Shown: piece after piece, positions 1 through 34,539 of the stretch
How the letters are laid out: each line of letters begins with the position of its first letter
How positions within the stretch are numbered: position 1 is the first letter of the stretch
From: Crocinitomicaceae bacterium
GTDB lineage: Bacteria > Bacteroidota > Bacteroidia > Flavobacteriales_D > Crocinitomicaceae
Assembly: GCA_014762645.1 (NCBI GenBank)
Contig: JABURP010000027.1
Location: 1-35,105, forward strand
Reading direction: 5' to 3'
Length of the DNA: 35,105 nucleotides
Translations under genes and position numbers: made by a program
The notes under the pieces: generated by a model
Seen by the model: the letters and a program-made list of their open reading frames with translations, nothing else
Databases searched by the model: none
What the model was told of the DNA's origin: nothing

Positions 1-160
1 ATTGGTTTCTGTGATTTATACAAACACGCGGACATCCATGTGTTCCCGCCATAGCAGGATTCAAATAGATGGGGTTTGCATAGAACTGTGTGAATTCAGG
101 GTCCTGGGATAATCCCTGGAATGAAATCAAAACGACACATAATGTAACTATCTTCTTCAT
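1..160 (-). CDS. PorP/SprF family type IX secretion membrane protein, 5' part only
   Basis: Reading left from an ATG at 158-160, the first 53 residues are visible and the gene leaves the window. A signal peptide (MKKIVTLCVVLISFQGLSQ) is followed by DPEFTQFYANPIYLNPAMAG, the start typical of mature PorP/SprF proteins (their hallmark is DPxFxQ...NPxxxNPAxAG). Family members are outer-membrane beta-barrels tied to type IX secretion and to anchoring of surface proteins or gliding adhesins. The start lies 10 bases after the stop of the anti-sigma/barrel fusion gene (171-1922), so the two are almost surely cotranscribed and this may be that protein's partner. A GAGG sits just upstream of the ATG. 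The family call is firm although the barrel itself is outside the window. Confidence 0.85.
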   Translation of the reverse strand, partial: MKKIVTLCVVLISFQGLSQDPEFTQFYANPIYLNPAMAGTHGCPRVCINHRNQ

Positions 161-170
161 ACTCCTCATT

Positions 171-1922
171 TTATCTAATACCTCTTACGTTTTTTGATTT
201 ACCATTAAATCGTATTGTCAGGTTATGTGATCCTAACGATTCATTGGTCAGGGCTGTTTTTGTTTGATCATACTGGTAAGCCAGTTTGAATTTTTCAAAT
301 TTTAATCCGATAGATGCGGTAAAGTCCAGTTTGTGTGATACAGACCCCCCGAAAGTAAACTTATTAACCCGGCATGATGCTCCTGCCCATAGTTCTTGTC
401 TATCACCATATTGTTCGTAGGCTGCAAAAGGACTCAATGACAATTTCTTATTATTTGATAAATAGTCAAACCCTACAACACCTGATAATTTTAATGGGGC
501 AGAAGTTGGGGTAGCATATCCTTCTTCGTTGTACACATTTTCATAATGACGGCTTAGATTCTCGGCACTAAACCCAGCAAAAAACCATTTCGTATTAAGT
601 ACAAACCCTAAGCCATAGTCTTTGTACCATAATTGCTGTTGTCCCTGCATTTGTTGAGCAGCTGGTGTGTTGAGAATTCTTCCTCTTTGCAACTCAATGC
701 CAGACTCCGGATCTAATTTGTTTCCATTTGCATTTAATGCACCCAGGGTCAATTTAACAGCAGGTTCAAACACTATGTTCTTGCCAAGTATGATTTTAGG
801 AGAGTAAATCAAACTCATGTTATAATCTCCAAATTGTCCATATTGGTAATCTTTAGCATTCAGCACAACTCCAACACCACCTCTCATGCGGTAATAGTAG
901 TTATCAAAAGACATGGTTAATTCCTGAGAATTTTGACTTGAACCAAACCACTGATTTCTATAGTTAATCTCTGTTCTTGGTGTAAGCATTCCTCCTGCAA
1001 ACCCAGGGTTTGATGCAACAATTGAATTGTTTGGCAACAGGTAATCCGGATCTCTCAGGTTTGTTAAACCAACCGGATAATCAAACATCCGTTCAATTTT
1101 CCTGACCATTTTCTTGAATTTACTCCCTTTCGGTGCTTTATAACCCACGTCAATATCGGCCATATCAAAATTCAACTCAGAGTCATCAGGATTACCCTGA
1201 TATTTAGACGTATTTTCTGTTCCTTCATACTTGACGACTTCCTGGTCGATAGCTTCCTGATGTGTTTCAGGGTTGGTTACGTCAGAAGGGTTCTGAAACT
1301 CGTAGTTGAAATCATCATTGATTGAAAGATTATCGTTTGTGTAATTACTATTTGTTTCAAGCGAATTGGTATTATCCGAATTACTAAGCGATCCATTTTC
1401 CAGCTCTTCAGAAGTAACATTACTTTCTACGCTAGTATTATTTTCATCATTTAACGCAATGTTTTGGTGGATCTCATTGGCAACTACGCCATCATTGTGT
1501 GCAGAAAAGTGAGTACCTTCTTCAACTAAGTCAGTATAATTTTCATCAATTACAGGGGAGATCACATTCTTATTATGAATATCTTCTTCAGCTACAACAT
1601 CTTCTGATCCGTTAAATCCATTTATTAGAGAATCAGACGACTGGGTAAAGTACATAACAGATGTTCCTACAAGCAACAAGGCGACAGCAGCAGCGGCATA
1701 ACCATACCAACCGGCAAGGACTTTTCTGTCCTTTTCAAGTTCTTCTGCATGTGGATAAACAAAGTCTTCATTTTCTATGAAGGCATTGCTCCATGCGTCA
1801 ACTTCAGTTTCGTACTGTGGATTCTGGATAAGGAAATTCTCGAACGCTTCTTTCTCTGCACCGGAAAGATTGCCTTCTTTATAATCGAACATCCATCTGT
1901 CAAAATTCTCAGGAATATTCAT
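171..1922 (-). CDS. Trans-envelope anti-sigma factor fused to a PorP/SprF-like outer-membrane barrel
   Basis: 583 residues in three parts. Residues 1-70 are an acidic, helical cytoplasmic domain like the short anti-sigma domains encoded after Bacteroidota ECF genes (FDRWMFDYKEGNLSGAEKEA start). One membrane helix follows at about 73-92. Residues 95-265 are a linker rich in Asn, Asp, Glu, Ser and Thr with no obvious fold. Residues 297-573 look like a PorP/SprF barrel: NPGFAGG, then YRNQWFG, GGVGVVLNAKDYQYG, YSPKI, LWYKDYGLGF, FAGFSAENL, and the closing KLAYQYDQTKTAL...SLGSHNLTIRF, matching the family's last strands. It overlaps the ECF gene by 4 bases (ATGA-type coupling) and is followed by another PorP/SprF gene. 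The fold suggests a protein crossing both membranes, like the dual membrane-spanning anti-sigma (Dma) proteins described in Bacteroides. The sigma-inhibiting role is inferred from gene order and topology. Confidence 0.8.
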   Translation of the reverse strand: MNIPENFDRWMFDYKEGNLSGAEKEAFENFLIQNPQYETEVDAWSNAFIENEDFVYPHAEELEKDRKVLAGWYGYAAAAVALLLVGTSVMYFTQSSDSLINGFNGSEDVVAEEDIHNKNVISPVIDENYTDLVEEGTHFSAHNDGVVANEIHQNIALNDENNTSVESNVTSEELENGSLSNSDNTNSLETNSNYTNDNLSINDDFNYEFQNPSDVTNPETHQEAIDQEVVKYEGTENTSKYQGNPDDSELNFDMADIDVGYKAPKGSKFKKMVRKIERMFDYPVGLTNLRDPDYLLPNNSIVASNPGFAGGMLTPRTEINYRNQWFGSSQNSQELTMSFDNYYYRMRGGVGVVLNAKDYQYGQFGDYNMSLIYSPKIILGKNIVFEPAVKLTLGALNANGNKLDPESGIELQRGRILNTPAAQQMQGQQQLWYKDYGLGFVLNTKWFFAGFSAENLSRHYENVYNEEGYATPTSAPLKLSGVVGFDYLSNNKKLSLSPFAAYEQYGDRQELWAGASCRVNKFTFGGSVSHKLDFTASIGLKFEKFKLAYQYDQTKTALTNESLGSHNLTIRFNGKSKNVRGIR

Positions 1923-2407
1923 ACGAGTATTGTTAGATCTTTTAACTGTTTCTTTATTTTGTTTCGGGCCCTAAACAGATAGACTTTCACCTGTGCTTCA
2001 GAAAGCTCAAGGATCTCCCCTATCTCTTTATAATTATATCCTTCAAGGTCTCTTAGAAGGATAATTGATTTTTGAACCGGTGGTAATTGTGCCAAACACT
2101 TTTCGATCACCTCTTTCATCTCGTAAGTTTTTGTATGCGACTCAGCCGTTTCCGGAGAAGTCATATGCTCTACATACATCAGCTTACTTCTTTTCTTAAT
2201 GTAGTTGATCATGGCATTGTGTGCACATGTAAACAACCAGGCTTTCACCTTAGCTGGCTCAACCTTTTTTCGGTTCTTCCATAGTTTTTCAAACACATCC
2301 TGAACAATATCACTGGCATCCTCTTTGTTTTGCAGGTACTTTAGCGCAAATCCATAAAGTCTCCCAGAGAATTCTTTAACGGCGATATTGTATTCTTTTC
2401 GGTTCAA
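1919..2407 (-). CDS. ECF (sigma-70 family) RNA polymerase sigma factor
   Basis: 162 residues, a normal ECF length. Region 2 spans about 10-75 (FALKYLQNKEDASDIVQDVF, then KLWKN and AWLFTCAHNAMINYIKKR) and region 4 about 100-155 (LPPVQKSIILLRDLEGYNYK, EIGEILELSEAQVKVYLFRA). It should direct RNA polymerase to a small regulon when released from its anti-sigma factor, whose gene overlaps its 3' end by 4 bases. The only plausible start is TTG at 2405-2407: the frame is closed upstream by a TAG at 2411-2413 and the next ATG lies inside region 2. There is no Shine-Dalgarno sequence before it. The regulon cannot be read from this window. Its operon partners suggest that it responds to the state of an outer-membrane PorP/SprF barrel. 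Confidence 0.93.
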   Translation of the reverse strand: MNRKEYNIAVKEFSGRLYGFALKYLQNKEDASDIVQDVFEKLWKNRKKVEPAKVKAWLFTCAHNAMINYIKKRSKLMYVEHMTSPETAESHTKTYEMKEVIEKCLAQLPPVQKSIILLRDLEGYNYKEIGEILELSEAQVKVYLFRARNKIKKQLKDLTILV

Positions 2408-2602: not shown

Positions 2603-4366
2603 ATGGAAGTAAAACGATTATTTGACATCCCTTATTATCAAAATGAGAAATTTCCTCAAAAAAATGCCCTTGTGGACAAAATTGATGGGAATTGGGTAGA
2701 AATCTCCACTCAAGAGTATATTAACCGCGCCAATTCTGTATCAAGAGGCTTAATAAAACTAGGCATTCAACCCGGTGATAAGATTGCTTTAATCTCAAAT
2801 AATCGTTCTGAATGGAACATTTGTGATATAGGCATTCAACAAGTAGGCGCAATCAGTGTTCCAGTATATCCAACTATTGATTCAGACTCATACGCCTATA
2901 TTTTTAATGACGCTTCTGTAAAAATTTGTATCGTTTCGGATCAGGAACTTGCAGATAAAGTCACTGCTATTGTACCACAAGTTGCCACGTTAACAACGGT
3001 TTACTCATTTATTGAGTGCAAAGGCACAACACACTGGTCTGCACTTCAGGAACCAGAGGATGGTGCACTTGACATGGAAATACAAAAACGCAAAGAGCAA
3101 ATAAAAAACAGTGACCTTGTAACGTTGATTTATACCTCCGGAACAACAGGAAAACCTAAAGGTGTTATGTTAACTCACAACAATCTACTAAGCAACGTAA
3201 AAGCTTGTGAACCAAGACTTCCTGTAGACAACTCGGCAAAAGCTTTAAGTTTCTTACCTGTTTGCCACGTTTTTGAGCGAATGTTGCTCTATTTGTACCA
3301 GTATACTGGAGTATCCATCTACTTTGCAGAAAGCCTCGATACAATTGGTGATAACTTGAGAGAAGTCAAACCCAACGTATTTACAGCCGTTCCGAGATTA
3401 CTGGAAAAAGTATTCGATAAAATTGTTGCCAAAGGTGAAGACCTGACAGGAATTAAGCGCAAATTATTCTTTTGGGCCCTAAAACTAGGAGAAGAATATG
3501 ATGTAAGAGGTAAATCAGGGTGGTATAAATTCAAACTCAGCATTGCACGTAAATTGATCTTTTCTAAATGGCAAGAGGCTCTAGGAGGCAATGTAGAAGC
3601 AATAGCTTGTGGAAGTGCGGCGCTACAGCCACGTTTAGCAAGAATTTTCCTCGCCGCTGATATTCCGGTTATGGAAGGATACGGTTTGACTGAAACATCT
3701 CCGGTAATTAGTGTGAACTGGAAAGATACCAACCAAATTTATATTGGAACTACGGGTACGGTTATTGACCAGGTAACCGTTAAAATAGCTGAAGATGGCG
3801 AAATACTGGTAAAAGGCCCTAATGTCATGATTGGTTATTATAATCAGCCGGAAAAAACAAAAGAAGTTATTGATGATGAAGGTTGGTTCCACACAGGAGA
3901 TATCGGAACATTTGTTGATGGAATTTACCTGAAAATAACCGATAGAAAGAAAGAAATTTTCAAAACTTCCGGAGGTAAATATATTGCACCGCAAGTAATG
4001 GAGAACAAGTTCAAGGAATCACGGTTTATTGAGCAAATCATGATAATTGGTGAAAACCAAAAAATGCCAGCAGCTTTTATTGTCCCTGATGTTGAATACT
4101 TTAAAACCTGGGCAAAGCAGAAAAAAATTGAATTAGGTGGTACTTATGAAGATATTGCCTCCCATACCCTGGTCAAAGAACAATTAGAGAAAGAAGTGGA
4201 ACACTTCAACAGTTTCTTTGGAAAATGGGAGCGTGTCAAACGATTTGAGATTTCACCTCATCCATGGACCATAGAAAGCGGAGAATTAACACCAACTATG
4301 AAACCGAGGAGAAAAGAAGTCATGGAATCTTGCAAGCACTTATTTGATAAGATTTATAATAGCTAA
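2603..4366 (+). CDS. Long-chain acyl-CoA synthetase (AMP-forming)
   Basis: 587 residues of the ANL (acyl-adenylate-forming) superfamily, close in length to bacterial FAA1/FadD-type long-chain fatty acid-CoA ligases (about 560-600). The ATP/AMP signature YTSGTTGKPKGVMLTH lies near residue 175. The A5 motif GYGLTETSP lies near 358, the A7 motif GWFHTGDIG near 426, and the A8 hinge DRKKEIFKTSGGKY near 446. It activates fatty acids with ATP and CoA for lipid synthesis or degradation. No signal peptide is seen, so it is cytoplasmic or membrane-associated. It is transcribed alone, divergently from the ECF operon. Its stop shares a CTAA with that of the convergent nadC gene. The exact chain-length preference cannot be read. 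Confidence 0.93.
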   Translation: MEVKRLFDIPYYQNEKFPQKNALVDKIDGNWVEISTQEYINRANSVSRGLIKLGIQPGDKIALISNNRSEWNICDIGIQQVGAISVPVYPTIDSDSYAYIFNDASVKICIVSDQELADKVTAIVPQVATLTTVYSFIECKGTTHWSALQEPEDGALDMEIQKRKEQIKNSDLVTLIYTSGTTGKPKGVMLTHNNLLSNVKACEPRLPVDNSAKALSFLPVCHVFERMLLYLYQYTGVSIYFAESLDTIGDNLREVKPNVFTAVPRLLEKVFDKIVAKGEDLTGIKRKLFFWALKLGEEYDVRGKSGWYKFKLSIARKLIFSKWQEALGGNVEAIACGSAALQPRLARIFLAADIPVMEGYGLTETSPVISVNWKDTNQIYIGTTGTVIDQVTVKIAEDGEILVKGPNVMIGYYNQPEKTKEVIDDEGWFHTGDIGTFVDGIYLKITDRKKEIFKTSGGKYIAPQVMENKFKESRFIEQIMIIGENQKMPAAFIVPDVEYFKTWAKQKKIELGGTYEDIASHTLVKEQLEKEVEHFNSFFGKWERVKRFEISPHPWTIESGELTPTMKPRRKEVMESCKHLFDKIYNS

Positions 4367-6551: not shown

Positions 6552-9500
6552 ATGAAATTGAACCTATTTGCGCGGATAGCGCTTGCTCTGGTTATCCTCA
6601 TTACCAGCAATTCTTTCGGACAAGAGATTTTAACAGGAAAAGCTGCTATGGAGCTTTACCCAAATGCTCAAATGGTGCGTACCGGCAAACATTCGGTAGC
6701 ACCTTCCTTTATTAAGTTTTATGAAGCTAAAGCGATAGATCTTGATCATTTTACGGGTTGGGCTTCTAAAAATCTGGAACTTGATCCTAATATGGGCTTT
6801 AAATTGCTGTCTACTGAGCGTGATCAACTGGGACAAGTACACTACAGGTATCAACAAACTTATTTTGGAAAGCCTGTTGAAGGAACCATGTGGATACTGC
6901 ACACAAAGGGAGACAAGATAAACTCCATGAATGGGTTGATATATCCGTCCTTAAACGTAAGTAACAATGCAGGATTAGCTGAAAATACTGCCATGAATAA
7001 AGCGGTTGATTTCGTAGGAGCAAACACCTACAAGTGGGAATTACCTGAAGAAGAAGCACACTTAAAACGAGAGCAAAATGATCCCAATGCTACTTACTAT
7101 CCACATGGAGAACTTGTATTTGTGAGTGAAGGAGCTGCTTTAACTCCGGAATCGTTTCGACTTGCCTATAAGTTTAACATCTATGCACATCAACCTGTTT
7201 CACGGTCTGAAATTTATGTAGATGCCTCCAACGGTTCTATTTTATTCACAAATGAGGTCTTTCACCATGCAGATGCTGTGGGTACTGCCCAGACTGGATA
7301 TAGCGGTAGTCAGACTATTACTGCAGACAGTTTTGGAGGTTCATTTCGTTTACGCGAATCAGGAAGAGGAAACGGTATAAATACCTATGACATGAATACC
7401 GGAACCAGTTACGGCGCTTCCGTTGATTTTACAGATAATGATAACCTTTGGACGAATGCCAATCCGGAATTGGATGAATATGCAACTGATGCGCATTGGG
7501 GTGCTGAGATGACTTATGATTATTTCTGGTTAGAACACAATAGGAACAGTATTGACGGCAATGGTTTTACTTTGAACAGCTACGTTCACTATGATAATAA
7601 CTATGCCAATGCATTTTGGGATGGTCAACGCATGACTTACGGAGATGGCAATACCACCTATAATCCGTTCACAGCAATTGACATTACGGGTCATGAGATT
7701 ACACATGGATTAACGAATTTTACAGCGAATTTGGTTTACAGTGCTGAATCCGGTGCACTTAATGAGTCTTTCTCAGATATTTTCGGAGCTGCCATTGAAC
7801 AGTATGCCTTACCTACAAACTATGACTGGCTTATGGGTGAAGACATTGGAGCACCTTTAAGATCAATGTCTGACCCGAACAGTATGGGAGATCCTGATAC
7901 TTATTTTGGGAATAACTGGGCAAGTCTTACAGGACCTGACAATGGCGGGGTTCATACGAATTCAGGTGTCCAGAATTATTGGTTTTATCTACTCGTAGAA
8001 GGAGGAACCGGAACGAATGACAATGCTGATAACTATTCGGTGAATGGTATTGGTTGGACAGAAGCCGGTCAAATCGCATTTAGAAACCTTACCGTGTATA
8101 TGACACCAAGCTCAGATTTTGCAGAGGCAAGATTTTATGCCATTCAATCTGCAATTGATCTTTTCGGTGGATGTACACCTCAGGTTGAATCATGTACAAA
8201 TGCATGGTATGCCGTAGGGGTTGGACCGGCTTATGTTGCGTCAGTTGTAGCGGATATGAACGCACCGATCACGGCATCCTGTCAGGCTCCTTTTACCGTA
8301 GACTTTTCTAACCTAAGCATAAATGGAACTACGTTCCAGTGGGATTTTGGAGATGGAAACACTAGTACATCACTAAACCCAAGTCATACATATAGTGGCT
8401 ATGGTTCTTACACTATTACCTTAATAGCAGATGGAGGATCGTGTGGCATTGACACAACGGTTTGGCCCAACTATGTTGACATTGATACAGCAAATGCCTG
8501 TATCGTAACCATGCCAACATCCGGTTCGGCACCAGTACAAAATGCCTGCTCCGGAACGCTACATGATAGCGGTGGACCCACTGGCGATTATGGTGCAAAT
8601 GAAGACGCTCAAATTACTATTTCTCCTATTGGAGCCGCAACCGTCGATATTAATTTCACTTTCTTTGATGTTGAAGCCGGACAAGCTGGATCGTGCAATT
8701 ACGACTATGTAGAAGTGTATGACGGACCCAATACCTCAGCTCCTTTAGTAGATACCTACTGTAACAATAATGTTCCAACCGGTACAATTTCATCAACTGG
8801 ACCGGATATCACGATTGTATTCCATTCCGACCCGGGTGTAGAAGATGCCGGATATGAAGTGCAGTGGAATTGTGTTTTACCTACCGTACCACCTACAGCC
8901 AATTTCATCTCAAATGTAGACACCACTTGTAATGGAGAAGTGATGTTTACAGATATCAGTACCAATGGACCGAATTCCTGGTATTGGGACTTTGGGGACG
9001 GAAATACTTCTAATCAACAAGATCCAACCCATAACTACTCTGCCAATGGATCTTACACCGTGAAATTAGTTGCATCAAATACCAACGGAGCTGATTCTGT
9101 CATTTTTACAGATTTGATTTTTGTGGATTTACCTACGGCGCCAACCGGTAATGGTGCAAATATTTGTGAAAATAATACAGCCACATTATCGGCAACTGGA
9201 ACTGGGTCAGGAGACCTTGACTGGTACGACCAACAAACAGGCGGTACGTTAATTAATACAGGAACTTCATATACTACTCCTTCCCTGGGAGCAACTACAT
9301 CTTATTGGGTAGAAGAAAACATTCCGGGACCAATTCAAAATCTGGGTCCTGTTGATAACAGTTTCGGAGGAGGAGGTTTCTTTAACGGAGACCAACATCT
9401 TATGTTTGATGTTACTTCTCCTGTAACACTCAAAACGGTTAAAGTTTATGCCAATGGAAGTGGAAACCGATATATTGAATTGAGGAACTCATCAGGAGTT

Positions 9501-10727
9501 GTCGTTCAATCGGCCACTATATACATCCCGGATGGAGAACAGGTAATTACACTTGATTTTGATCTAACCGTAGGTACTGACTGGCAATTAGGCACACAAC
9601 CAAACTCCAATCAAGATTTGTACAGAAATAATTCCGGACCCTCTTATCCATATACGGTTGGAGGTGGTGAAGTCACCATTACACAGGCCAGTCCTGGGAC
9701 AGGCTACTATTACTTCTTTTATGACTGGGTGATTCAATCGCCTGGCTGTACTTCTCCAAGAACAGAAGTTATTGCAACCGTATCACCAAATGCTGATGCT
9801 ACTATTACTCCTGTTGCTCCTATGTGTTCATCCGATTCGCCGATTACGCTAACAGCTGCTGAAACCGGTGGAACATGGACAGGGACCGGAGTGAGCGCAA
9901 GTACGTTTGACCCATCAATTGCGGGAAATGGCACACACACTGTAACGTACACAATACCTGGGATGTGTGGAGATTCGGACCAAATAGATATTGTTGTTGC
10001 GGACAGTTATGATGCAACGATTAATGCACCAGCAGCTACCATTTGTGATACTGATGTACCACTAACATTAACCGCTGTTGATGGAGGTGGAGTTTGGTCA
10101 GGCACAGGAATTACTAATGCAGCCACAGGTGAATTTGACCCAGCAACCGCCGGTGCAGGAACACATACGATTAGTTACTCTATTGCAGGCTCTTGTGGTG
10201 ATGCAGACACGATTGATGTCGTGGTAGAGGCAACACCGGATGCAAGTATAACACCGGCCGGACCATTTTGCAGCTACGAAGATCCTTATCAGTTGATAGC
10301 TGCAGAACCTGGAGGTACGTGGTCAGCAGATTGCGGCACTTGCATAAATGCTACAACCGGTGAATTTGATCCAACTGCAGCTAACACCGGTACATGGACG
10401 ATTACTTACACAATCTCCGGAAACTGCCTTGCAACAGATGTGATCAGTATAACTGTTGATGATTGTCTCGGAGTGGATGAAAACACCAATGCATTTTCTA
10501 TCTATCCTAATCCTTCAGACGGTAACTTCGTTGTGCAATTTGATAACTTTTCGGAATCCTACATTGTTGTAACTGACATTGCGGGTAGAATTGTATATAA
10601 ATCTGCAGTGCTTTCAGACAAGGTCAACATAGACCTTTCTTCAGTTGCTGGTGGAACGTATTTCCTAACCGTATTGAATAACGACCTCACGCTAACGACT
10701 ACAAAGAAAATTCAGATCTTGAGATAG
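6552..10727 (+). CDS. Secreted M4 (thermolysin-like) metalloprotease with CUB, PKD and Ig-like domains and T9SS sorting tail
   Basis: 1391 residues. Signal peptide 1-24, then an FTP/PepSY-like propeptide to about 235 and an M4 catalytic domain to about 560. The zinc site is HEITH (H381, H385) with E405 in NESFSD, exactly 20 residues on as in thermolysin. The catalytic His is H468 in DNGGVHTNSG. Next come a PKD domain near 575-640 (WDFGDGNTS), a CUB domain near 670-775, a second PKD domain (783-857), an Ig-like segment (860-927) and an unassigned beta-rich region to about 1070. Three repeats of about 75 residues follow (GGTWTGTG / GGVWSGTG / GGTWSADC). The tail 1313-1391 (FSIYPNPSDGNFVVQFD ... 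KKIQILR) is a type A T9SS C-terminal domain. It is presumably released or attached at the cell surface for protein degradation. Confidence 0.95.
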   Translation: MKLNLFARIALALVILITSNSFGQEILTGKAAMELYPNAQMVRTGKHSVAPSFIKFYEAKAIDLDHFTGWASKNLELDPNMGFKLLSTERDQLGQVHYRYQQTYFGKPVEGTMWILHTKGDKINSMNGLIYPSLNVSNNAGLAENTAMNKAVDFVGANTYKWELPEEEAHLKREQNDPNATYYPHGELVFVSEGAALTPESFRLAYKFNIYAHQPVSRSEIYVDASNGSILFTNEVFHHADAVGTAQTGYSGSQTITADSFGGSFRLRESGRGNGINTYDMNTGTSYGASVDFTDNDNLWTNANPELDEYATDAHWGAEMTYDYFWLEHNRNSIDGNGFTLNSYVHYDNNYANAFWDGQRMTYGDGNTTYNPFTAIDITGHEITHGLTNFTANLVYSAESGALNESFSDIFGAAIEQYALPTNYDWLMGEDIGAPLRSMSDPNSMGDPDTYFGNNWASLTGPDNGGVHTNSGVQNYWFYLLVEGGTGTNDNADNYSVNGIGWTEAGQIAFRNLTVYMTPSSDFAEARFYAIQSAIDLFGGCTPQVESCTNAWYAVGVGPAYVASVVADMNAPITASCQAPFTVDFSNLSINGTTFQWDFGDGNTSTSLNPSHTYSGYGSYTITLIADGGSCGIDTTVWPNYVDIDTANACIVTMPTSGSAPVQNACSGTLHDSGGPTGDYGANEDAQITISPIGAATVDINFTFFDVEAGQAGSCNYDYVEVYDGPNTSAPLVDTYCNNNVPTGTISSTGPDITIVFHSDPGVEDAGYEVQWNCVLPTVPPTANFISNVDTTCNGEVMFTDISTNGPNSWYWDFGDGNTSNQQDPTHNYSANGSYTVKLVASNTNGADSVIFTDLIFVDLPTAPTGNGANICENNTATLSATGTGSGDLDWYDQQTGGTLINTGTSYTTPSLGATTSYWVEENIPGPIQNLGPVDNSFGGGGFFNGDQHLMFDVTSPVTLKTVKVYANGSGNRYIELRNSSGVVVQSATIYIPDGEQVITLDFDLTVGTDWQLGTQPNSNQDLYRNNSGPSYPYTVGGGEVTITQASPGTGYYYFFYDWVIQSPGCTSPRTEVIATVSPNADATITPVAPMCSSDSPITLTAAETGGTWTGTGVSASTFDPSIAGNGTHTVTYTIPGMCGDSDQIDIVVADSYDATINAPAATICDTDVPLTLTAVDGGGVWSGTGITNAATGEFDPATAGAGTHTISYSIAGSCGDADTIDVVVEATPDASITPAGPFCSYEDPYQLIAAEPGGTWSADCGTCINATTGEFDPTAANTGTWTITYTISGNCLATDVISITVDDCLGVDENTNAFSIYPNPSDGNFVVQFDNFSESYIVVTDIAGRIVYKSAVLSDKVNIDLSSVAGGTYFLTVLNNDLTLTTTKKIQILR

Positions 10728-16576: not shown

Positions 16577-18658
16577 ATGAAGAAAATAAGTCTTGTAATA
16601 ATACTTGCTCTTGTAGCTGGATTGTCTTTTGGACAGGATGTTCCTTTTGACAAGAAGCTTTTTAAGGACCAAAAAGATGAGTTTAAGGATGCCTTGAAGC
16701 ATTACGAAAACGGGGATGATTATAGACACGGGTTTCCACCTGATTATATGAAAGCCGTTGCTGAATATCAACAGGCGTATAAATTCAACCCGAAAAGTGC
16801 AGATTTGAACTACGCTATCGGTATTTGCTACTTCAATTTTGATAAATACCAAATGAAAAAGTATTTTGAAGCAGCCTATAAACTCAAACCTACAGTTGCT
16901 CCGGATATACTCTATTACATTGCTATATCTTATCACATTGAAGGGGAATGGCAAAAAGCCATTGACCACTACAACAAGTTCGCTTCCAGTGTCAATAACA
17001 ACCCTGATATGCAGCCATTGAAGACGGATGCTTTCAAAAAAATTCAGGAATGTAAGAATGGAATGGAGTTGGAAAAAAATCCAGCACGTGTTTGGATCGA
17101 TAATGTTGGTGGAAAAGTAAATTCTAAATATCCGGATTATGCTCCTGTTATTTCTGCAGACGAAGCCGTGATGGTATTTACAGCAAGACGTCCGGATGCA
17201 GAAGATATGGCACCAGATGGAAGAGGATATTTTGAAGACCTCTATATTACAACTAAAGAAAATGGTGAGTGGACCAAGGCTAAAAACATGGGTAAACCCT
17301 TGAATGTTGAAGGACAACATGATGCCACCATTGGTATCTCTCCTGATGGTCACCAACTCTTTGTTTATAATGATAAAAAAGGGAACGGAGATATTTACAT
17401 TTCTTCTGATGAAGAAGGTTCCTGGTCAAAACCTGAGCAATTGGGTAAAAACATCAACACGGATTATCATGAGCCGGATGCTTCTCTTTCGTTTGACGGT
17501 AAAAGACTGTATTTCACGTCGAATAAACCTGGCGGATACGGTCAACATGATATTTATTATGCAGACTGGGATGAAGATAAAGAGAGATGGGGAGAAGCTA
17601 TCAATATTGGAGATGTTCTGAACACACCATATGAAGAACGATCGGTATTTATTCACCCTGATGGTGAAACTATGTATTTTGCTTCGACAGGGCACAATAC
17701 CATGGGTGGATATGATCTCTTTTATTCAAAACTGGTAGATGGGAAATGGCAAAAACCAGTTAACCTTGGACCTCCACTAAACACTCCGGACAATGACGTA
17801 CAACTGGTGGTTGCTGGTAACGGTAGATATGGTTACATGTCATCTTACCGTGAAGGAGGATTTGGAGAAAAAGATATTTACTTAATTACTTTTCTCGGCC
17901 CTGAAAAACTGCCAATGTTATCCAATGAAGATAACCTGATCGCATCCATTGCCAAGCCTGTTAAAGAAAAGATCAAAGAACCAGAATTAGTTAGTGAAGG
18001 TTCTAACATGGCCATCCTAACAGGAATTATTCGGGACGACAAAACTAAAGAACCTCTGAAAGCGCAGGTTGTGCTTGTTGACAATGAGAAGAATGAAGTG
18101 ATTGCCGAATTCCAATCAGATGCCAATACCGGAAAATATCTTGTATCTCTTCCAGGAGGGTCAAACTATGGTATCGCCGTAAAAAAAGACGGTTACCTCT
18201 TCCACTCAGAAAACTTCCAAATACCAGAAGCAAGTGGATTTAAGCAATATAAAAAAGATGTTGATCTCAAAAAAGTGGAAGTTGGACAGTCTATTGTGTT
18301 AAGGAACGTTTTCTTTGACTACGCCAAGTATTCACTGCGTGATGCTTCCATTAATGAGTTGGAACGATTGATTAAACTTCTAAATGACAATCCAACTATG
18401 CGTATTGAGATTTCTGGGCATACGGATACCAGAGGATCTGACCATGACAATCAGGTATTATCGCAGAACAGAGCGAAATCCGTAGTAGATTACCTGATTG
18501 CACACGGAATTGATAAATCACGACTGGAGTATGCAGGTTACGGTGAAAAGCAACCACTAATTCCTGACAGTGAGATTAATAAAATGAATTCTAAGACGGA
18601 AAAGGAAGATGCTCACCAGCAAAATAGACGGACGGAGTTCAAGATTTTAAGTATGTAA
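16577..18658 (+). CDS. PorE-like protein (TPR, PD40 propeller, CRD, OmpA domain), first copy
   Basis: 693 residues. Signal peptide 1-19. TPR-like helices span about 40-160, and a PD40/WD40-like propeller about 185-440 with repeated SPDG / SFDG / HPDG blades (ISPDGHQLFVYNDKKGNGDI, LSFDGKRLYFTSNKPGG). A carboxypeptidase-regulatory-like domain spans about 480-550, and an OmpA C-terminal domain about 573-693 with peptidoglycan-binding residues D617 (GHTDTRG) and R632 (NRAKSVVDYL). This domain order matches PorE of the type IX secretion system, which binds peptidoglycan and the PorP-PorK/N ring in Porphyromonas. Unlike the PorE lipoprotein, no lipobox Cys is visible here. It could be a paralogue serving a particular PorP/SprF rather than the core T9SS. 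Confidence 0.88.
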   Translation: MKKISLVIILALVAGLSFGQDVPFDKKLFKDQKDEFKDALKHYENGDDYRHGFPPDYMKAVAEYQQAYKFNPKSADLNYAIGICYFNFDKYQMKKYFEAAYKLKPTVAPDILYYIAISYHIEGEWQKAIDHYNKFASSVNNNPDMQPLKTDAFKKIQECKNGMELEKNPARVWIDNVGGKVNSKYPDYAPVISADEAVMVFTARRPDAEDMAPDGRGYFEDLYITTKENGEWTKAKNMGKPLNVEGQHDATIGISPDGHQLFVYNDKKGNGDIYISSDEEGSWSKPEQLGKNINTDYHEPDASLSFDGKRLYFTSNKPGGYGQHDIYYADWDEDKERWGEAINIGDVLNTPYEERSVFIHPDGETMYFASTGHNTMGGYDLFYSKLVDGKWQKPVNLGPPLNTPDNDVQLVVAGNGRYGYMSSYREGGFGEKDIYLITFLGPEKLPMLSNEDNLIASIAKPVKEKIKEPELVSEGSNMAILTGIIRDDKTKEPLKAQVVLVDNEKNEVIAEFQSDANTGKYLVSLPGGSNYGIAVKKDGYLFHSENFQIPEASGFKQYKKDVDLKKVEVGQSIVLRNVFFDYAKYSLRDASINELERLIKLLNDNPTMRIEISGHTDTRGSDHDNQVLSQNRAKSVVDYLIAHGIDKSRLEYAGYGEKQPLIPDSEINKMNSKTEKEDAHQQNRRTEFKILSM

Positions 18659-18775: not shown

Positions 18776-19810
18776 ATGACAAGGCTTTTAGTAATTATAC
18801 TGTTCATACCATTTTTTGCCAGTGCTCAACCTAAGTACAATAGCGAATCCAGAAAACTATTCAACAGGGCCACTAAAGAGTACAATGATGGGAAAATCAC
18901 GTTGGCATTAGGGTTATTTGAAGAGTGTGTTGCTGCAGATGCAAGGCACGCAGAAGCCTATTTAAATATTTCGACCATTCTTTACGATCGCAACCAAATG
19001 GGGGATGCGCTAAAAAATGCCCAAAAAGCATATTCAAATAATAAATTTAACCCTGCCATCTACGCGCAACTCGGAAAATGCTACTATCAGGCCATGTTGT
19101 ATGATAGTTCGGCTTATTTTCTGGAAAAAGCGGTTGAAATGGGTCACGACAATCAATTTGTTTACATCTACGCAGGTAAATCGTATTATGAGATGACGGA
19201 TTACGCAAAAGCCATATCCTATTTTGACAAAGCAATTGCAGCGAATGCTAATAATCCGGTGAGCTACAATTCTCGCGGTAAATCCTATTTTATGCGTGGT
19301 GAGTATGACAAAGCCGAAGCAGATTTTGAAAAAGCGCTTGAACTGAACCCTCAATCTGTTGGGTTGTACTCCAATCTCGCTAACTGTGAGTTAGAAAATG
19401 ATAAACCGGATGAGGCTCTTGAACATATTAAAGCAGGAATGGAAATAGCGGATGATGACGGTAAATCCAGATTATTGTTATTACTGGGCAATTATTACCA
19501 CAAGATTGGAAACCTGGAGCTTGCTATGGAAAACTTTAATAAGGCCTATGATTTAGATAGAAACAACGCTCAAATTCTAAACAACCAGGCAGCTGTTTAC
19601 CTGGATCAGGATAATTACGAAGCTGCAATAGAAAGATGTAACCTTGCTTTGGAGATTAATCCTGAAATGATGGAAGCGTATTTTAACAGAGGAATTGCTA
19701 ATGAGATGTTGAGAAAGGTAGAAGATGCCTGTTCAGACTGGGAGCAAGCTTTTATACTTGGTTCCGAGCAAGCTGAAATTTATCTCAACAGTGCTACTTG
19801 CAATGAATAA
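18776..19810 (+). CDS. Secreted TPR-repeat protein, second copy of the module
   Basis: 344 residues. Signal peptide MTRLLVIILFIPFFASAQ, then TPR units to about residue 320 (AYLNISTILYDRNQMGDALK, SYNSRGKSYFMRGEYDKAEA, NNQAAVYLDQDNYEAAIERC). The end EDACSDWEQAFILGSEQAEI aligns with the end of the 366-residue copy, so the two are paralogues. Internal repeats are more diverged than in the first copy. It is translationally close to the second PorE-like gene. It probably acts in the periplasm as a partner of that protein, which is inference from paired gene order seen twice. Confidence 0.85.
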   Translation: MTRLLVIILFIPFFASAQPKYNSESRKLFNRATKEYNDGKITLALGLFEECVAADARHAEAYLNISTILYDRNQMGDALKNAQKAYSNNKFNPAIYAQLGKCYYQAMLYDSSAYFLEKAVEMGHDNQFVYIYAGKSYYEMTDYAKAISYFDKAIAANANNPVSYNSRGKSYFMRGEYDKAEADFEKALELNPQSVGLYSNLANCELENDKPDEALEHIKAGMEIADDDGKSRLLLLLGNYYHKIGNLELAMENFNKAYDLDRNNAQILNNQAAVYLDQDNYEAAIERCNLALEINPEMMEAYFNRGIANEMLRKVEDACSDWEQAFILGSEQAEIYLNSATCNE

Positions 19811-19814
19811 GGAA

Positions 19815-22052
19815 ATGAATAAATTACTTACATTATTGTTTTTACTGTTGTCTGGGCTATCCTTTGGACAGGAAGAAGACGTGCCTTTTGATAAACGTCT
19901 TTTCCCAAACCAAAAGGAAGCGTTTATGGATGCCGTGAAAGAAATCAAAGAAGGGGACTACCACTTTTTTGACGGAACCAGTAGTGATTTAACATTGGCG
20001 TTACGACATTACCTTTATGCCCAGGATTTTAACCCCTATTCCTCTGTACTGAACTTCAAAATTGGTGTTTGCTATCTTAATTCTAATCACAAATTCAATG
20101 CGCTAGAGCATTTGAAATTTGCATATAAGGTAAACCCTGATGTAGACGAGAATATAAAATTTTATCTTGCCCAGGCACACCAGTTAGCTGGTGAGTTTGA
20201 TACGGCTATTTATTATTACCAGGAGTTTAAAGACCAAATCAATCCTAATGATCAAGGACAACGGGCCTTTATCAATAAAAAAATTCAGGAATGCAGAACT
20301 GGCCAGGAGTTGAAAGAATCACCAATACGAGTATGGATCGATAACCTGGGAGATAGCATTAATACAGAATATCCGGAGTTTTCACCTGTTATATCAGCAG
20401 ATAACCGTGTACTATTTTTTACAGGTCGGAGACCGGATTCTGAAGGTGGGAAGAAAGATCAGACGGGCTTCCATTATGAAGATGTTTATGTCTCCAAACG
20501 AGAGTACGGTGGTGATTGGCAAACCTCTGAAAATATTGGTGATCCTGTAAACACAGAATCACATGATGCTACAGTTGGTCTTTCCCCAGACGGTAAATCA
20601 CTGCTAACCTATAAAGGAATCAACAGTAAAAATGGGGATATTTTCATAACCAAGGAATTGGAAGATGGTACCTGGGCCGAACCCGTATCCATTGGGGACA
20701 ATATAAACACCAAATACCACGAATCCTCGGCGTCGCTCTCATTTGATGAAAAGACCTTATTCTTTGTATCGGATCAACCTGGAGGATTTGGTCAGCATGA
20801 TATCTACGTTTCTTACTGGGATGAAGAAAAATCAGAATGGGGGAAACCATACAACCTGGGACCTACTATTAATACAGAATTTGAAGAAAAAGGTGTATTC
20901 TTCCACCCGGATAATAAAACACTTTATTTCTCTTCTAACGGACACAACAACATGGGTGGGTTGGACATCTTCAAAACAGAATTTAACAGTGAAACAGGTG
21001 AATGGTCCGAGCCAGAGAACATTGGGTATCCTATCAACACACCAGATGATGATATCTATTTTGTGGTAACAGGTAACGAGCGATATGCTTACTACTCTTC
21101 TTTCCGTGAAGATGGTTTTGGTGAAAAGGATATCTATCAGATCACTTTCCTTGGTGAACGTAAAAACTCACTTTTGGCAGATGCTGATTTAATGGATACT
21201 GAATTTTTGGAAGAAGAATCTTCGGACTTGGCTACATCTGATGGAACCAGTCATACGGATAATAACACTGACAATAACCAGAATAACAATCAGAATAATA
21301 CTGATAACAATCAGAATAACACTGATAATAACAATCAGAATAACACCGACAACAATCAGAATAATACTGATAACAACCAGAACAATAATACGGAAGACAA
21401 GAACCGTAACATGATCATCAAAGGTCATGTGAAAGACTGCAAGACATCCAGTGGTATTCAGGCAAATATTGTAATGGTAAATAATGAAACAGGTGCCAGA
21501 AGGGAAATCACATCAAATCCTGATGGGTCTTATGAAGTTATTGTAGAAGCTGGAGAAAGTTATGCGTTTACAGTAAGTAGTCCGAGCTATAATATCGATT
21601 CCAAGTCTATTTCAACGACACGTAAAGATAAGAACACGGAACGTGTCGTGAACTTCGAATTATGCCCTCCATCTCAGGGAAGTACGTTTACCTTAAGAAA
21701 TATCTACTTTGATTTTGATAAATATGGTTTAAGGGATAAATCCGTTGCTGATCTGAATTTATTAGCGCAGGTTATGAAAGAAAATCCTAATATGATTATT
21801 GAATTAGGTGGGCATACAGACACACGTGGCTCTTCTGAGTACAATGAAATTCTATCCTTGAACCGTGCTAAAGTTGCCAAAGAGTACCTAGTAAAAAAAG
21901 GAATTGATCCTAAACGAATTTATGTACGGGGTTATGGTGAAAAAGAACCGGAAATCCCGGATTCGGAAATTGCCAAGCTTCAGGGCCGTAAAGCTAAGAA
22001 TGATGCACACCAGCAAAATAGACGAACGGTGGTTACCATTATTCGCAACTAA
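19815..22052 (+). CDS. PorE-like protein (TPR, PD40 propeller, CRD, OmpA domain), second copy with Asn-rich linker
   Basis: 745 residues from ATG 19815. An ATG at 19803 would overlap the TPR stop and only lengthen the signal peptide. Signal peptide MNKLLTLLFLLLSGLSFGQ. The domains match the first copy: TPR-like region, PD40 propeller (LSPDGKSLLTYKGINSKNGD, LSFDEKTLFFVSDQPGGFGQ), regulatory-like domain (IKGHVKDCKTSSGIQANIVM) and OmpA domain (IYFDFDKYGLRDKSVADLNL, GGHTDTRGSSEYNE, LSLNRAKVAKEYL). The difference is a linker of about 45 residues made almost only of Asn, Asp, Gln and Thr between propeller and regulatory-like domain (bases 21258-21392). It should tether an outer-membrane or T9SS assembly to peptidoglycan. 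A terminator follows at 22080-22111. Confidence 0.88.
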   Translation: MNKLLTLLFLLLSGLSFGQEEDVPFDKRLFPNQKEAFMDAVKEIKEGDYHFFDGTSSDLTLALRHYLYAQDFNPYSSVLNFKIGVCYLNSNHKFNALEHLKFAYKVNPDVDENIKFYLAQAHQLAGEFDTAIYYYQEFKDQINPNDQGQRAFINKKIQECRTGQELKESPIRVWIDNLGDSINTEYPEFSPVISADNRVLFFTGRRPDSEGGKKDQTGFHYEDVYVSKREYGGDWQTSENIGDPVNTESHDATVGLSPDGKSLLTYKGINSKNGDIFITKELEDGTWAEPVSIGDNINTKYHESSASLSFDEKTLFFVSDQPGGFGQHDIYVSYWDEEKSEWGKPYNLGPTINTEFEEKGVFFHPDNKTLYFSSNGHNNMGGLDIFKTEFNSETGEWSEPENIGYPINTPDDDIYFVVTGNERYAYYSSFREDGFGEKDIYQITFLGERKNSLLADADLMDTEFLEEESSDLATSDGTSHTDNNTDNNQNNNQNNTDNNQNNTDNNNQNNTDNNQNNTDNNQNNNTEDKNRNMIIKGHVKDCKTSSGIQANIVMVNNETGARREITSNPDGSYEVIVEAGESYAFTVSSPSYNIDSKSISTTRKDKNTERVVNFELCPPSQGSTFTLRNIYFDFDKYGLRDKSVADLNLLAQVMKENPNMIIELGGHTDTRGSSEYNEILSLNRAKVAKEYLVKKGIDPKRIYVRGYGEKEPEIPDSEIAKLQGRKAKNDAHQQNRRTVVTIIRN
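21258..21392 (+). repeat. Degenerate 21-bp repeat coding an Asn/Gln/Thr/Asp linker
   Basis: In-frame degenerate units of about 21 bases encode NNQNNTD-type heptads inside the second PorE-like gene. The units are built from AAC/AAT, CAG, ACT and GAT codons. Copy number could change by slippage in steps that keep the frame. The first PorE-like gene has no counterpart. Confidence 0.8.
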
Positions 22053-31362: not shown

Positions 31363-34300
31363 TTACTTTAGTACAGTAACGTGACCCCGGAATTCATATT
31401 TTTTATCCGTGTAGGAATCTTTTGCTTCAATTACCCAAATGTAGGTTCCATCCTGAACAAGTCCTCCATCACCATAATGCCCATTCCAAACTCCTTCAGC
31501 ATTATAAGATTCCCAGATTATTTCACCCCAACGATTAAAGATGGTCAGATGGTAATCATATATATCAATACCGGCAATATAGACTCTCCAGGAATCATTA
31601 GCTGCATCACCATCCGGTGTGAATATGTTAGGCGCATAAAGTAATACGTCGTTTACAATTGAGACTACAACTGTTATTGAATTTGTACATCCTTCATTCG
31701 TATTTACGGTCAGTGTTACCGGATAATCATTCGCAATCCCTTCTGGAAAAACTACAGTCGGATTTTGATTATTTGAAATTCCAGGTAATACTCCAGGGCC
31801 GAATTCCCAGTACCAGGATACAACATCTGATGATGAATAATCCGTAAATTCAATTTCCGTATCAAAAATCGTTGAAGGATTTGGATGATGCGTAAAGTTC
31901 GCGGTTGGGTTTTCGTATACAGTAATGTACTCATAAATTGTAGTATCCTCAATACAACCAGCAGACGTAACTATATTCATAGTAACATCATACGTTCCAG
32001 GATTTACAAATTGATGTGTAACGCTATCTAGTCCGTTTGCAACAATTACAGTTCCATCTGAGAAACTCCATGTCGTTTGCTGAAGTGAACCGTTTGATGT
32101 ATTTTGAAAAGTAACAGTAAAAGGTTCACACCCGGAATTCTCTAATGTAGAAAAACTTGGTATTACAGGTGCAGGTTCAGTAATATTTAAGCACTCCGTG
32201 TCAGTGGTAGGACAATCATCTGACATAGTAGCACAAACAACCATAGTACCCGTGGAAACGATATCGATTGTGGAGCCAGTACCTAATACATTTCCGCCAG
32301 TTTCCCAAGTGTAAACCACGTTTCCAATTCCGTTAACACCATTAACTGCTGCAGTTACAGTTTCACCCGCGCAAACTGTGAAATCAGGAGAAATTGAAGA
32401 AATATCTAAAACTGGAGGTTCAACTACTGTAAATGCATCTGTCACAGAACAACCAAAGCCATTATCGACTAATACATCATAGGTTCCAGGACAAAGGCCA
32501 GTAAAGTTCCCATTAGCTTGTGTTGTTGTTCCATTGTCTATGGAGTAGTTAACTAAGTTAGTTCCTGAGAGGGTGGCTGATCCATCACATACACTAAAAC
32601 ATGACGCGTCTGCAACAACAATTGGGTTTAAAGTTGGATAATTAATATCTTCAACAAAATCATCTACGGTACCCTGACAACCTAATGCGTCTTCTATTAA
32701 AAAACTGTAATTGACCCCAGGCGTTGCAGCCCCGCATAGTCCTGTAAAGGTATTAGATGCCTGAAAAGTAACACCACCATCATCACTATATGAGTAAGGA
32801 GCAGTACCATTTGCTCCGGTTACTTGAATCTCTCCATTACATGCCTGGCAATCTGAGTTTGTTACTGAAGTAGTTCCAGTAACCTGGAAAATCTGAAGAT
32901 CAATATAAGAAGAGGACGTACATCCAGCACTATCTTTCCGATATTCGTACGATCCAGCTAAAGCTGTTGATGGAGAGATTGGCATTGTTACAGGATTTCC
33001 CATTGGATCAAACCAATTACCACCTATTTCAGGTGTTCCACCTAACCAATTGAATAAATCTTCATCTGGACCTTCAAAACAAACCATTGCTGTACTATCA
33101 GTACCAGTATCAATATTACAAGGTTGAAGGACACTACAATCTGTTCCTCCCGCTCCTCCTGTTTGTGTTAATGTAATTTGCTGTACTTGATTAGAATAGT
33201 TTGTTATTAACATTACATATACCTCACCTACCTGAGCATTTGGAATACTTGGTGTTTCATTATTCGTAGCTGAGTAAGAACAATCCACTACCCCACTACC
33301 TGTTCCACCATTTCCATAGTTTCCACATCCATTTTGAGCAGCAGTGGTATCTCCAAAGGGTCCATAAATGATGAAATCAATATCGCTCGGAGCGGACAAT
33401 GACATGTCAATAGCTCCAGCAGTACTTATTTCCAAAAAGTACCATGCTGGGTTTGGTGAGGAGAATAAACAATCATAGTTATTTCCAGGATCAACTGTAG
33501 AGGCAGGCGTTCCGTTCGAGTTGGCCGTAAAAGTTAATGCCTGTTGAGTACATATAGGTGAAAGTGTACTACAATCCGTCCCACCAGGCGCAGGTGGCTG
33601 CGGACATGCGGTAGGACATGGCCCTCCACAATCAATGCCTGTTTCGCCCTGATTCTGAATTCCATCCGTACAAGATGGTGTAGCACATGAAATTGTTGCA
33701 GTCCATCCGTCCTGCGTTACCGAACCGTCAGATGTAAACTGGAATGTTAAACAGCCATTTGAAGATGATATTGTTCCTGGTGTATTCCCACCACTGAATG
33801 GGCTACCAGTTAACTGTGGTGAACCTGTAGTAGGTCCGTCGTATACATATAAGTAATCCCATCCATTTTCTACTTGAAATTGAGTGAAATCAAATATTAT
33901 CTCATCTCCAGGCTGATCCGAACAAAAAGTAATGGTAGAGAATTCATTATTTCCATAAGTTCCCGCTAAGCCACCGGAATCATAAAATGTCCCAGAACAA
34001 GAATTGATTGTTCCTCCACTGGAAATTAGATAATCCGTACATGGATTTGGACAAGGTCCTCCACAATCAATGCCTGTTTCACCTTGATTTTGAATACCAT
34101 CCGAACAAGATGGTGTAGCACATGAAATTGTTGCAGTCCATCCTGCCTGAGTTACCGAACCGTCTGATGTAAATTGAAATGTCAGACAGCCATTTGAAGA
34201 TGATATTGTTCCTGGTGCATTTCCACCACTAAATGGACTACCAGCTAACTGTGGAGAACCTGTAGTAGGTCCGTCATAAACATATAGGTAATCCCAACCA

Positions 34301-34539
34301 CTTTCTACTTGAAATTGAGTGAAATCGAAAATTATCTCATCTCCAGGTTGATCCGAACAAAAAGTCATAGTGATGAACTCATTGTTACCATAAGCCCCTG
34401 CTGACCCCCCAGTATCATAAAATGTGCCTGAGCAAGTATTAATAGTTGTATTAGACATGTTATATGTCTGACCATAACTGAACATAGTAGATAAACCACA
34501 AGCAATTAAAGTCAATATTTTTAATCTGCTGTTCATCAT
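31363..34539 (-). CDS. Large T9SS cargo protein with duplicated CUB module, PKD domains and gliding-type (type B) C-terminal domain
   Basis: 1058 residues. Signal peptide 1-24. Two nearly identical modules of 145 residues start at C36 and C181; each is a CUB domain (CSGTFYDxGG ... YLYVYDGPTTGSPQL) plus a Cys-rich NQGETGIDCGGPCP turn. A PPC-like domain follows (about 320-465), then SprB-like repeats (about 555-690, NCQACNGEIQVTGANGTAPY) and PKD-type domains (about 790-965). The CHU_C / type B sorting domain spans about 968-1058 (LYAPNIFTPDGDAANDSW, FNRWGEIIWES, QDGTYIW, YEFRGHVTVLK). It should be exported by the type IX system and kept at the surface, as an adhesin or glycan-binding protein. 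Its ATG lies 3 bases after the stop of the 118-residue gene. Confidence 0.93.
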   Translation of the reverse strand: MMNSRLKILTLIACGLSTMFSYGQTYNMSNTTINTCSGTFYDTGGSAGAYGNNEFITMTFCSDQPGDEIIFDFTQFQVESGWDYLYVYDGPTTGSPQLAGSPFSGGNAPGTISSSNGCLTFQFTSDGSVTQAGWTATISCATPSCSDGIQNQGETGIDCGGPCPNPCTDYLISSGGTINSCSGTFYDSGGLAGTYGNNEFSTITFCSDQPGDEIIFDFTQFQVENGWDYLYVYDGPTTGSPQLTGSPFSGGNTPGTISSSNGCLTFQFTSDGSVTQDGWTATISCATPSCTDGIQNQGETGIDCGGPCPTACPQPPAPGGTDCSTLSPICTQQALTFTANSNGTPASTVDPGNNYDCLFSSPNPAWYFLEISTAGAIDMSLSAPSDIDFIIYGPFGDTTAAQNGCGNYGNGGTGSGVVDCSYSATNNETPSIPNAQVGEVYVMLITNYSNQVQQITLTQTGGAGGTDCSVLQPCNIDTGTDSTAMVCFEGPDEDLFNWLGGTPEIGGNWFDPMGNPVTMPISPSTALAGSYEYRKDSAGCTSSSYIDLQIFQVTGTTSVTNSDCQACNGEIQVTGANGTAPYSYSDDGGVTFQASNTFTGLCGAATPGVNYSFLIEDALGCQGTVDDFVEDINYPTLNPIVVADASCFSVCDGSATLSGTNLVNYSIDNGTTTQANGNFTGLCPGTYDVLVDNGFGCSVTDAFTVVEPPVLDISSISPDFTVCAGETVTAAVNGVNGIGNVVYTWETGGNVLGTGSTIDIVSTGTMVVCATMSDDCPTTDTECLNITEPAPVIPSFSTLENSGCEPFTVTFQNTSNGSLQQTTWSFSDGTVIVANGLDSVTHQFVNPGTYDVTMNIVTSAGCIEDTTIYEYITVYENPTANFTHHPNPSTIFDTEIEFTDYSSSDVVSWYWEFGPGVLPGISNNQNPTVVFPEGIANDYPVTLTVNTNEGCTNSITVVVSIVNDVLLYAPNIFTPDGDAANDSWRVYIAGIDIYDYHLTIFNRWGEIIWESYNAEGVWNGHYGDGGLVQDGTYIWVIEAKDSYTDKKYEFRGHVTVLK
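33607..34434 (-). repeat. Two near-identical 435-bp direct repeats encoding CUB modules
   Basis: Units are 34434-34000 and 33999 to about 33607 (the second slightly shorter). Most differences are single bases, many of them silent. The period of 145 codons keeps the frame. The similarity is much higher than between other domains in the window, so the duplication or gene conversion is recent. Confidence 0.88.

Follow-up and report, generated by a model that had tools for sequence, protein, structure and literature searches.

A three-gene operon of an ECF sigma factor, a putative anti-sigma factor ending in a predicted PorP/SprF-type barrel, and a second copy of core porP in Crocinitomicaceae

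We analysed a 35,105-nucleotide stretch of DNA from a Crocinitomicaceae bacterium (GenBank assembly GCA_014762645.1, contig JABURP010000027.1; hereafter the window), the entire contig C69 of a genome in 128 contigs (G000, the source genome). Computation revealed an operon at its start that consists of a gene for an extracytoplasmic function (ECF) sigma factor, a gene for a four-part protein that ends in a barrel of the FadL fold class (the fusion), and porP, a twin of the core porP of the type IX secretion system (T9SS), all behind a promoter-like motif. The sigma factor is probably held off by the fusion, which would reach from the cytoplasm to the outer membrane, and the three genes may form one autoregulated unit whose net effect is to match the supply of PorP to outer-membrane demand; we give this reading a probability of about 0.5. 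An operon that carries a spare secretion barrel suggests that the cell may keep watch on one component of its secretion machine and replenish it. Little is known of how Bacteroidota sense outer-membrane and T9SS state, and a one-protein link from barrel to sigma factor, together with a spare core barrel, would make outer-membrane dosage control of secretion machines directly testable. Numbers with the letters G, L, C, f and g are our labels for genomes, loci, contigs, families and genera; f24 is a family outside the order.

Architecture and conservation of the fusion

Open reading frames (ORFs) and Pfam matches agreed with the layout described in an earlier note made from the sequence: an ECF gene, a 583-residue fusion that overlaps it by 4 bases, and a PorP/SprF gene downstream. 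The gap of 10 bases that the note gave between fusion and porP holds with one of two possible ATG codons and shrinks to 1 base with the other. The ECF protein scored 146.3 bits against NF058625 (NCBIfam; curated cut-off 130), which places it in that family. The downstream fragment matched PF11751 (E 3.5e-10 over 53 residues), with the first 160-odd bases of the gene present; porP is incomplete because the window is a whole contig and the gene runs off its end. The ECF start codon was TTG in 23 of 24 starts called by a script that takes the earliest possible one, and likewise at all six f24 loci; this rare conserved start may keep sigma synthesis low.

The C-terminal part of the fusion was assigned to PorP/SprF by two profiles, PF11751 at residues 302–572 (E 1.9e-29; 103.5 bits against a cut-off of 22.3) and TIGR03519 (110.2 bits against 90.55), as the earlier note had expected of a profile search, and structure prediction pointed to the barrel that the note had proposed. 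The AlphaFold2 model, built from a five-row alignment, was weak overall (mean pLDDT, the predicted local distance difference test score, 50.9), with values mostly of 60–79 and some lower in the barrel blocks. It contained helices at 7–49, a long helix at 59–93, low-confidence coil to about residue 292, and 14 strands of at least 7 residues each at 316–573, plus two three-residue pieces. VIA-align put residues 294–578 of this model on FadL-type barrels with Z up to 21.7, including Z 20.9 to 6h3i chain F and 20.6 to 8gl6 chain F, both T9SS entries, over ~250 residues; the top Foldseek matches were FadL and OmpG barrels. As modelled, the barrel is of a predicted 14-stranded FadL-type fold and of the PorP/SprF type.

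Alignment with PorP revealed that the fused barrel starts where mature PorP starts after its signal peptide. In this junction alignment, made without a signal-peptide program, the fusion has the anti-sigma-like domain, helix and tether in place of PorP's cleavable signal peptide, and the N-terminal PorP stretch DPEFTQFYANPIYLNPA is degenerate there. Judged by these alignments, the barrel is PorP-derived, but the fusion as a whole is not a standard PorP: like the PorP/SprF proteins of the T9SS it passes the profile cut-offs and has the predicted FadL fold, whereas unlike them it is without a signal peptide and is joined to an anti-sigma-like domain. In VIA-align, the N-terminal segment of the barrel aligned with the start of FadL chains, from residue 11 onward. 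The start of FadL chains is the FadL hatch, and the tether would therefore enter the hatch directly. The alignment of fusions showed conservation of the barrel and of residues 1–20, the most conserved block of the protein, and free variation at 101–260; the most frequent residue averaged 0.15–0.27 in blocks of the latter region versus 0.77 in residues 1–20.

The arrangement was examined in 39 distinct full-length fusions, the loci fetched for matching the window's fusion, with barrels 27–64% identical to it. An ECF gene lay directly upstream in all 39, and the overlap was exactly 4 bases in 36. A PorP gene lay directly downstream in 37 (36 by script, the window's fragment by Pfam); the two fusions without one, L027 and L034, both end near contig ends. 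The linker measured 166–199 residues in 36 of the 39, with extremes of 152 and 264. A mis-joined frame or an assembly artefact was rejected in view of the 39 distinct fusions, their upstream ECF genes and the conserved tether length.

A search of 200 same-family genomes with the fusion returned many full-length matches, one named relative being a Crocinitomix metagenome-assembled genome. In the order, a ten-row profile run against 299 genomes (full-length: start at or before residue 31, end at or after 572) gave full-length matches in at least 64 same-family genomes and at least 15 genomes of five other families. One fusion in family f9 (G376) was unseen in other sampled members of its genus, and binning contamination is possible there. 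In the class (295 genomes), 12 genomes matched at E 1e-45 or better, four of the source family and eight of f24; six f24 loci were read, with the ECF gene upstream in all six and a PorP gene downstream in five. This spread across families, the porP twin and the conserved promoter motif go beyond the earlier note. The source genome itself holds 27 PF11751 places, contig-end fragments counted, and one fusion.

The N-terminal domain, helical in the AlphaFold2 model, was searched for separately with a 13-row profile of residues 1–100 against 296 genomes of the phylum. It matched 17 genomes, the source genome among them; outside the source genome all matches were in shorter ORFs of 153–509 residues, and a gene with an ECF match adjoined 13 of the 17 distinct remote loci. 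The source genome contains a second, split system (L129, G000:C71, 1994–4438) composed of an ECF gene, a gene for an anti-sigma-like protein with two N-terminal repeats, a membrane helix and a linker and without a barrel, and a separate barrel gene of PF13568. Its ECF protein scored 127.6 bits for NF058625, slightly below the cut-off, and its N-terminus is related to that of the fusion (hhalign E 5.4e-10 over 42 columns). The two systems thus share related ECF proteins and N-termini, whereas in the split one the barrel has a gene of its own and comes from another family. Because of the 13 remote loci and the C71 system, the N-terminal domain appears to accompany ECF genes, with outer-membrane partners that differ between the two systems of the source genome. 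Since the C71 barrel is encoded by the gene next to that of the domain, helix and linker, covalent attachment of the barrel need not be obligatory in the wider class, although the one-frame fusion and its tether length are kept across deep divergence.

The operon porP and its core twin

By sequence and position, the operon porP is a second copy of core porP, the gene flanked by porU and gldJ. The closed genome G004, from the same genus, carries another copy of the operon porP elsewhere, with 95% identity across bases 64–983 of 984. Among 30 genomes searched, 21 had at least two porP copies beside an intact fusion operon, and the second copy adjoined porU in 20 of these, the 21st being cut by a contig start. 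Two of the genes behind core porP were tested, and both had GldJ as best match (460.6 and 450.2 against the TIGR03524 cut-off of 458.2). Three genomes in which no fusion was recognised (G010, G012, G014) had the porU-linked copy only. A fourth (G013) carried a decayed porP with stop codons in the porU–gldJ slot (L158, G013:C28) and an intact copy elsewhere (L157), which fits interchangeable copies. The view of the downstream porP as merely a further SprF paralogue was rejected, given its twin relation to the porU-linked copy.

In the source genome, porP pieces were found at four contig ends: C69 (operon, 5′), C110 (porU side, 5′), C90 (gldJ side, 3′) and C104 (3′), the last probably being the 3′ end of the operon porP by elimination. 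With these breaks (window 1–169 and L130, L132 and L133 on C110, C90 and C104), the middle of both copies is unassembled, and breaks inside porP are as expected from two near-identical copies. The link to the T9SS that the earlier note had proposed is borne out by the copy relation in relatives, with which the contig ends of the source genome are consistent. Six other loci (L004, L006, L016, L030, L035, L050) break within the first 55–108 codons of the same gene.

Comparison of the twins within the 21 genomes showed that the mature proteins are 73.6–100% identical, with 54–79 differing residues in G020, G021, G124, G005, G173 and G193 and at most 32 in the other 15. Synonymous differences exceeded amino-acid differences in 20 genomes, with one tie. 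We counted a genome as homogenised when its copies were closer in DNA to each other than to their counterparts in the other 20 genomes, which was the case in nine. On its well-supported branches the tree requires at least 15 operon-label changes, against 1 for a single old duplication, and 404 of 500 label shuffles came out as low; operon and core copies are thus mixed like random labels, which fits homogenisation and not a single clean old split. In all six strongly homogenised genomes examined, blastn homology begins 3–9 bases ahead of the codon that follows the presumed cleavage residue, and its other limit falls within 1 base of the end of the stop codon. These patterns suggest that twins within a genome have been homogenised repeatedly, with gene conversion and purifying selection as the simplest reading; repeated re-duplication in place of gene conversion sits poorly with the conserved places that both copies hold. 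A model of the PorP twin from a two-row alignment reached a mean pLDDT of 27.

Promoter motif and candidate targets

Upstream of the ECF gene, a TGTAAC box and a TGTTTTA-like box were present in all 24 loci read of the 39. These sites matched 14 to 19 positions of a 19-position consensus, the lowest being L040, with spacing one base shorter. In f24 the motif was recognised by eye in six of six loci with a spacing of 16–17 bases, and four of them scored at least 10, the value taken as positive, with a matrix trained on operon sites. Control loci without the operon reached this score in 0.2% of 4000 windows (maximum 12.7) and in none of 150 ORF upstream regions; a set that contained the training sites gave a 99% point of 32.6. 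The exact motif had 43 matches in 22 genomes versus 9 for the reversed pattern, and none in three fusion-less genomes; 16 of the 43 were the operon's own site, which left 27 others, and the operon site deviated from the exact pattern in G077, G043 and G047. The conserved motif makes it likely that the operon is autoregulated by its sigma factor.

Downstream genes were read in 18 regions with 19 exact matches; six of these lie wholly or partly within an ORF, and some matches look chance-like. In several genera the exact motif precedes a gene for a ~125-residue lipoprotein, which we picked for the exact matches that stand ahead of it, or of a lipoprotein preceding it, in G004, G020, G047, G011, G193 and G173; in the last two genomes the motif lies before the preceding lipoprotein. 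Scores of at least 10 were found before the lipoprotein gene or a tandem neighbour in 12 of 24 genomes, and in none of the three fusion-less ones. In the source genome the site TGTAACTTTTACCCCCTTTAGATTGTTTAA lies 185 bases upstream and scores 34.8. Of 15 further fusion-bearing genomes eight were positive, clearly so in G000, G026, G080, G136 and G021 and near the control maximum in three. These counts cover the fetched loci; further lipoprotein places in G043, G005, G010 and G138 lie outside them. The lipoprotein-like gene of the source genome is small (L209, G000:C71:7350–7739) and lies behind the motif; several relatives have tandem copies, and the G004 orthologue had no Pfam match. Among the other motif-bearing genes are some for likely outer-membrane barrels, as judged by eye, and one for a PorP/SprF (L203, PF11751). 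A further ECF gene has the motif TGTAACTTTC...ATTGTTTTA (L197, G000:C50:1099–1128) 223 bases upstream, partly in an opposite ORF, and adjoins a gene for a 478-residue protein with PKD-like and gliding-type C-terminal sequence by eye; this is possibly a sigma cascade or chance.

At core porP, none of 23 upstream regions (three from fusion-less genomes) scored at least 10. A different pattern, TGTAAC-N15-18-CGT, occurred in 17 of 24 upstream regions and in the source genome, a raw count made without a shuffled control. With the operon motif absent and this pattern present at core porP, one and the same mature PorP seems to be available from two promoters under different control.

Readings of the operon and its surroundings

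We propose that the fusion, through its cytoplasmic N-terminus, would bind the ECF sigma factor and keep it off. The protein is predicted to cross the inner membrane once and to span the periplasm with a disordered tether of ~190 residues, which would run into the N-terminal hatch segment of an outer-membrane barrel of 14 strands derived from PorP/SprF, the barrel beginning where PorP sheds its signal peptide. If a T9SS or PorP partner or cargo engaged the barrel, or if the barrel failed to assemble, the hatch segment or the tether would change and the sigma factor would be released. The freed sigma factor would then act, as the promoter motif suggests, on its own operon with the spare core-PorP copy, on the small lipoprotein gene and on some other envelope genes, and the outcome would be a feedback that ties PorP supply to outer-membrane demand.

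Dual membrane-spanning anti-sigma factors (Dma) control vesiculation in Bacteroides thetaiotaomicron, and their deletion raises it. As described, they consist of an anti-sigma domain, a membrane helix, a disordered tether and a C-terminal beta-barrel, with an ECF gene adjacent (PMC13088901). The fusion has the same four-part layout and a neighbouring ECF gene, compared by description; unlike Dma, it ends in a PorP/SprF barrel and is followed by a copy of core porP as third gene. By this likeness in described layout, the fusion may be a variant Dma anti-sigma factor. The earlier note's reading of it as a Dma-type sensor is supported in part: the layout matches, whereas a direct report of secretion load or barrel occupancy, without a periplasmic relay, would be a putative further property. 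The Dma kind would thereby extend from gut Bacteroides to Flavobacteriales, and the barrel would look like an exchangeable sensor module; PF11751 had no match in 14 control genomes, ten of them named and Bacteroides ihuae among these. In Porphyromonas gingivalis, the PorA–PorXY–SigP route suggests that the surface state of the T9SS can reach a sigma factor (PMC7712824). There too a surface protein of T9SS type (PorA, with its C-terminal domain, CTD) influences an ECF sigma factor in control of T9SS genes, whereas the signal there passes through a two-component system and a stand-alone surface protein in place of a tethered anti-sigma barrel. In the literature, most subscription papers and the founding Dma paper aside, we found no described anti-sigma fusion with a PorP/SprF or T9SS barrel, in keeping with the earlier note, which knew of none.

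Several points weigh against the proposed feedback. We infer sigma binding, the double membrane span, the outer-membrane location and the sensed signal, and draw the regulon from the motif alone. The N-terminus, taken for an anti-sigma domain in the earlier note, resembles one at a sub-threshold level (best NF052375, E 0.025) and scored above the cut-off of no anti-sigma family in Pfam or NCBIfam; no solved structure matched it by sequence, PDB searches with the N-terminal profile, the fusion and the PorP twin each giving no match. The fused barrel is just about 24–31% identical to the PorP twins of relatives, and therefore does not necessarily share PorP's partners, and two divergent fusions tested, L053 and L055, miss the Pfam PorP profile. 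Twelve of the 21 genomes do not count as homogenised, six of these being close relatives in genus g11. The fusion-bearing genomes G139, G151 and G003 have one porP copy and G002 one fragment, two of the four being less than 90% complete. Three of the 12 lipoprotein-positive genomes (G059, G070, G031) score 11–13, around the control maximum, and no site of at least 10 was found at the fetched lipoprotein loci of G005, G006, G043, G066, G077, G138 and G051.

A narrower form of the feedback draws on P. gingivalis, for which PMC9143113 reports binding of PorP to PorE and to type B cargo, and a link to PorK; a PorP decoy could therefore read occupancy. In such a PorP homeostat, which we hold as possible if doubtful, the tethered barrel would compete as a decoy with PorP for a docking site or cargo. 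When PorP is short the decoy would be engaged, its hatch would pull the tether and the sigma factor would be switched on, with the second, gene-converted porP copy and companion lipoproteins as output.

Unlikely as we consider it, the fusion might instead watch over barrel assembly: its barrel would be a client of the beta-barrel assembly machinery (BAM), and misassembly would lead to cutting of the tether or unfolded barrel, release of the sigma factor and production of general outer-membrane proteins, with PorP as one output among several and not the thing sensed. Several motif genes outside the operon do resemble varied secreted barrels or lipoproteins by eye, and the long disordered tether is a plausible protease target; what this explanation leaves unaccounted for is the PorP type of the sensor barrel and the sameness of the third gene with core PorP. 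Sensing of a lipid or small ligand by the FadL-type barrel, as by FadL and TodX, with the divergent acyl-CoA synthetase in the pathway, is quite improbable: the top structural matches are FadL-family channels and the AMP-binding synthetase gene sits next to that of the ECF protein in the window, as it does at 20 of the 24 other same-family loci tested, but PorP-like proteins and PorV are all FadL-type barrels according to PMC9143113, so that the fold says little, and the synthetase gene is missing in genus g22 (3/3 loci), L159 and f24 (6/6), where the sigma–fusion pair is kept. The synthetase was rejected as a part of the system on this last ground.

Table 1 Features of the operon and its divergent neighbour in the window (residue numbers refer to the fusion protein).
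Feature	Position	Strand	Remarks
ECF sigma factor gene	1919–2407	−	TTG start; GFO_1088/PG0214 family; NF058625
Fusion gene	171–1922	−	583 aa; anti-sigma-like domain, membrane helix, disordered tether, PorP/SprF barrel
N-terminal domain, residues 1–70	1713–1922	−	motif P.NIDRW.F...EGNLS; putatively sigma-binding
Membrane helix, residues 68–94	1641–1721	−	single; hydropathy peak 1.78 at 68–86; model helix 59–93
Tether, residues about 95–284	1071–1640	−	Asn/Ser/Glu/Asp-rich; sequence variable
PorP/SprF barrel (predicted), residues about 285–573	204–1070	−	PF11751, TIGR03519, VIA-align, junction alignment
Operon porP copy, 5′ end	1–169	−	PF11751 and TIGR03519 matches on fragment; cut at contig end
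Promoter-like motif TGTAAC-N17-TGTTTTA	2449–2478	−	upstream of sigma gene; exact pattern here
AMP-binding (acyl-CoA synthetase-like) gene	2603–4366	+	divergent to ECF gene

Elsewhere in the window, two PD40–OmpA proteins are encoded at 16577–18658 and 19725–22052 (plus strand), the first with TPR repeats, and both resemble the domain order of PorE as given in PMC9143113. An M4 metallopeptidase with a Por_Secre_tail (6552–10727, plus strand) and a CUB/PKD protein with a CHU_C-type end (31363–34539, minus strand) are likely T9SS cargo.

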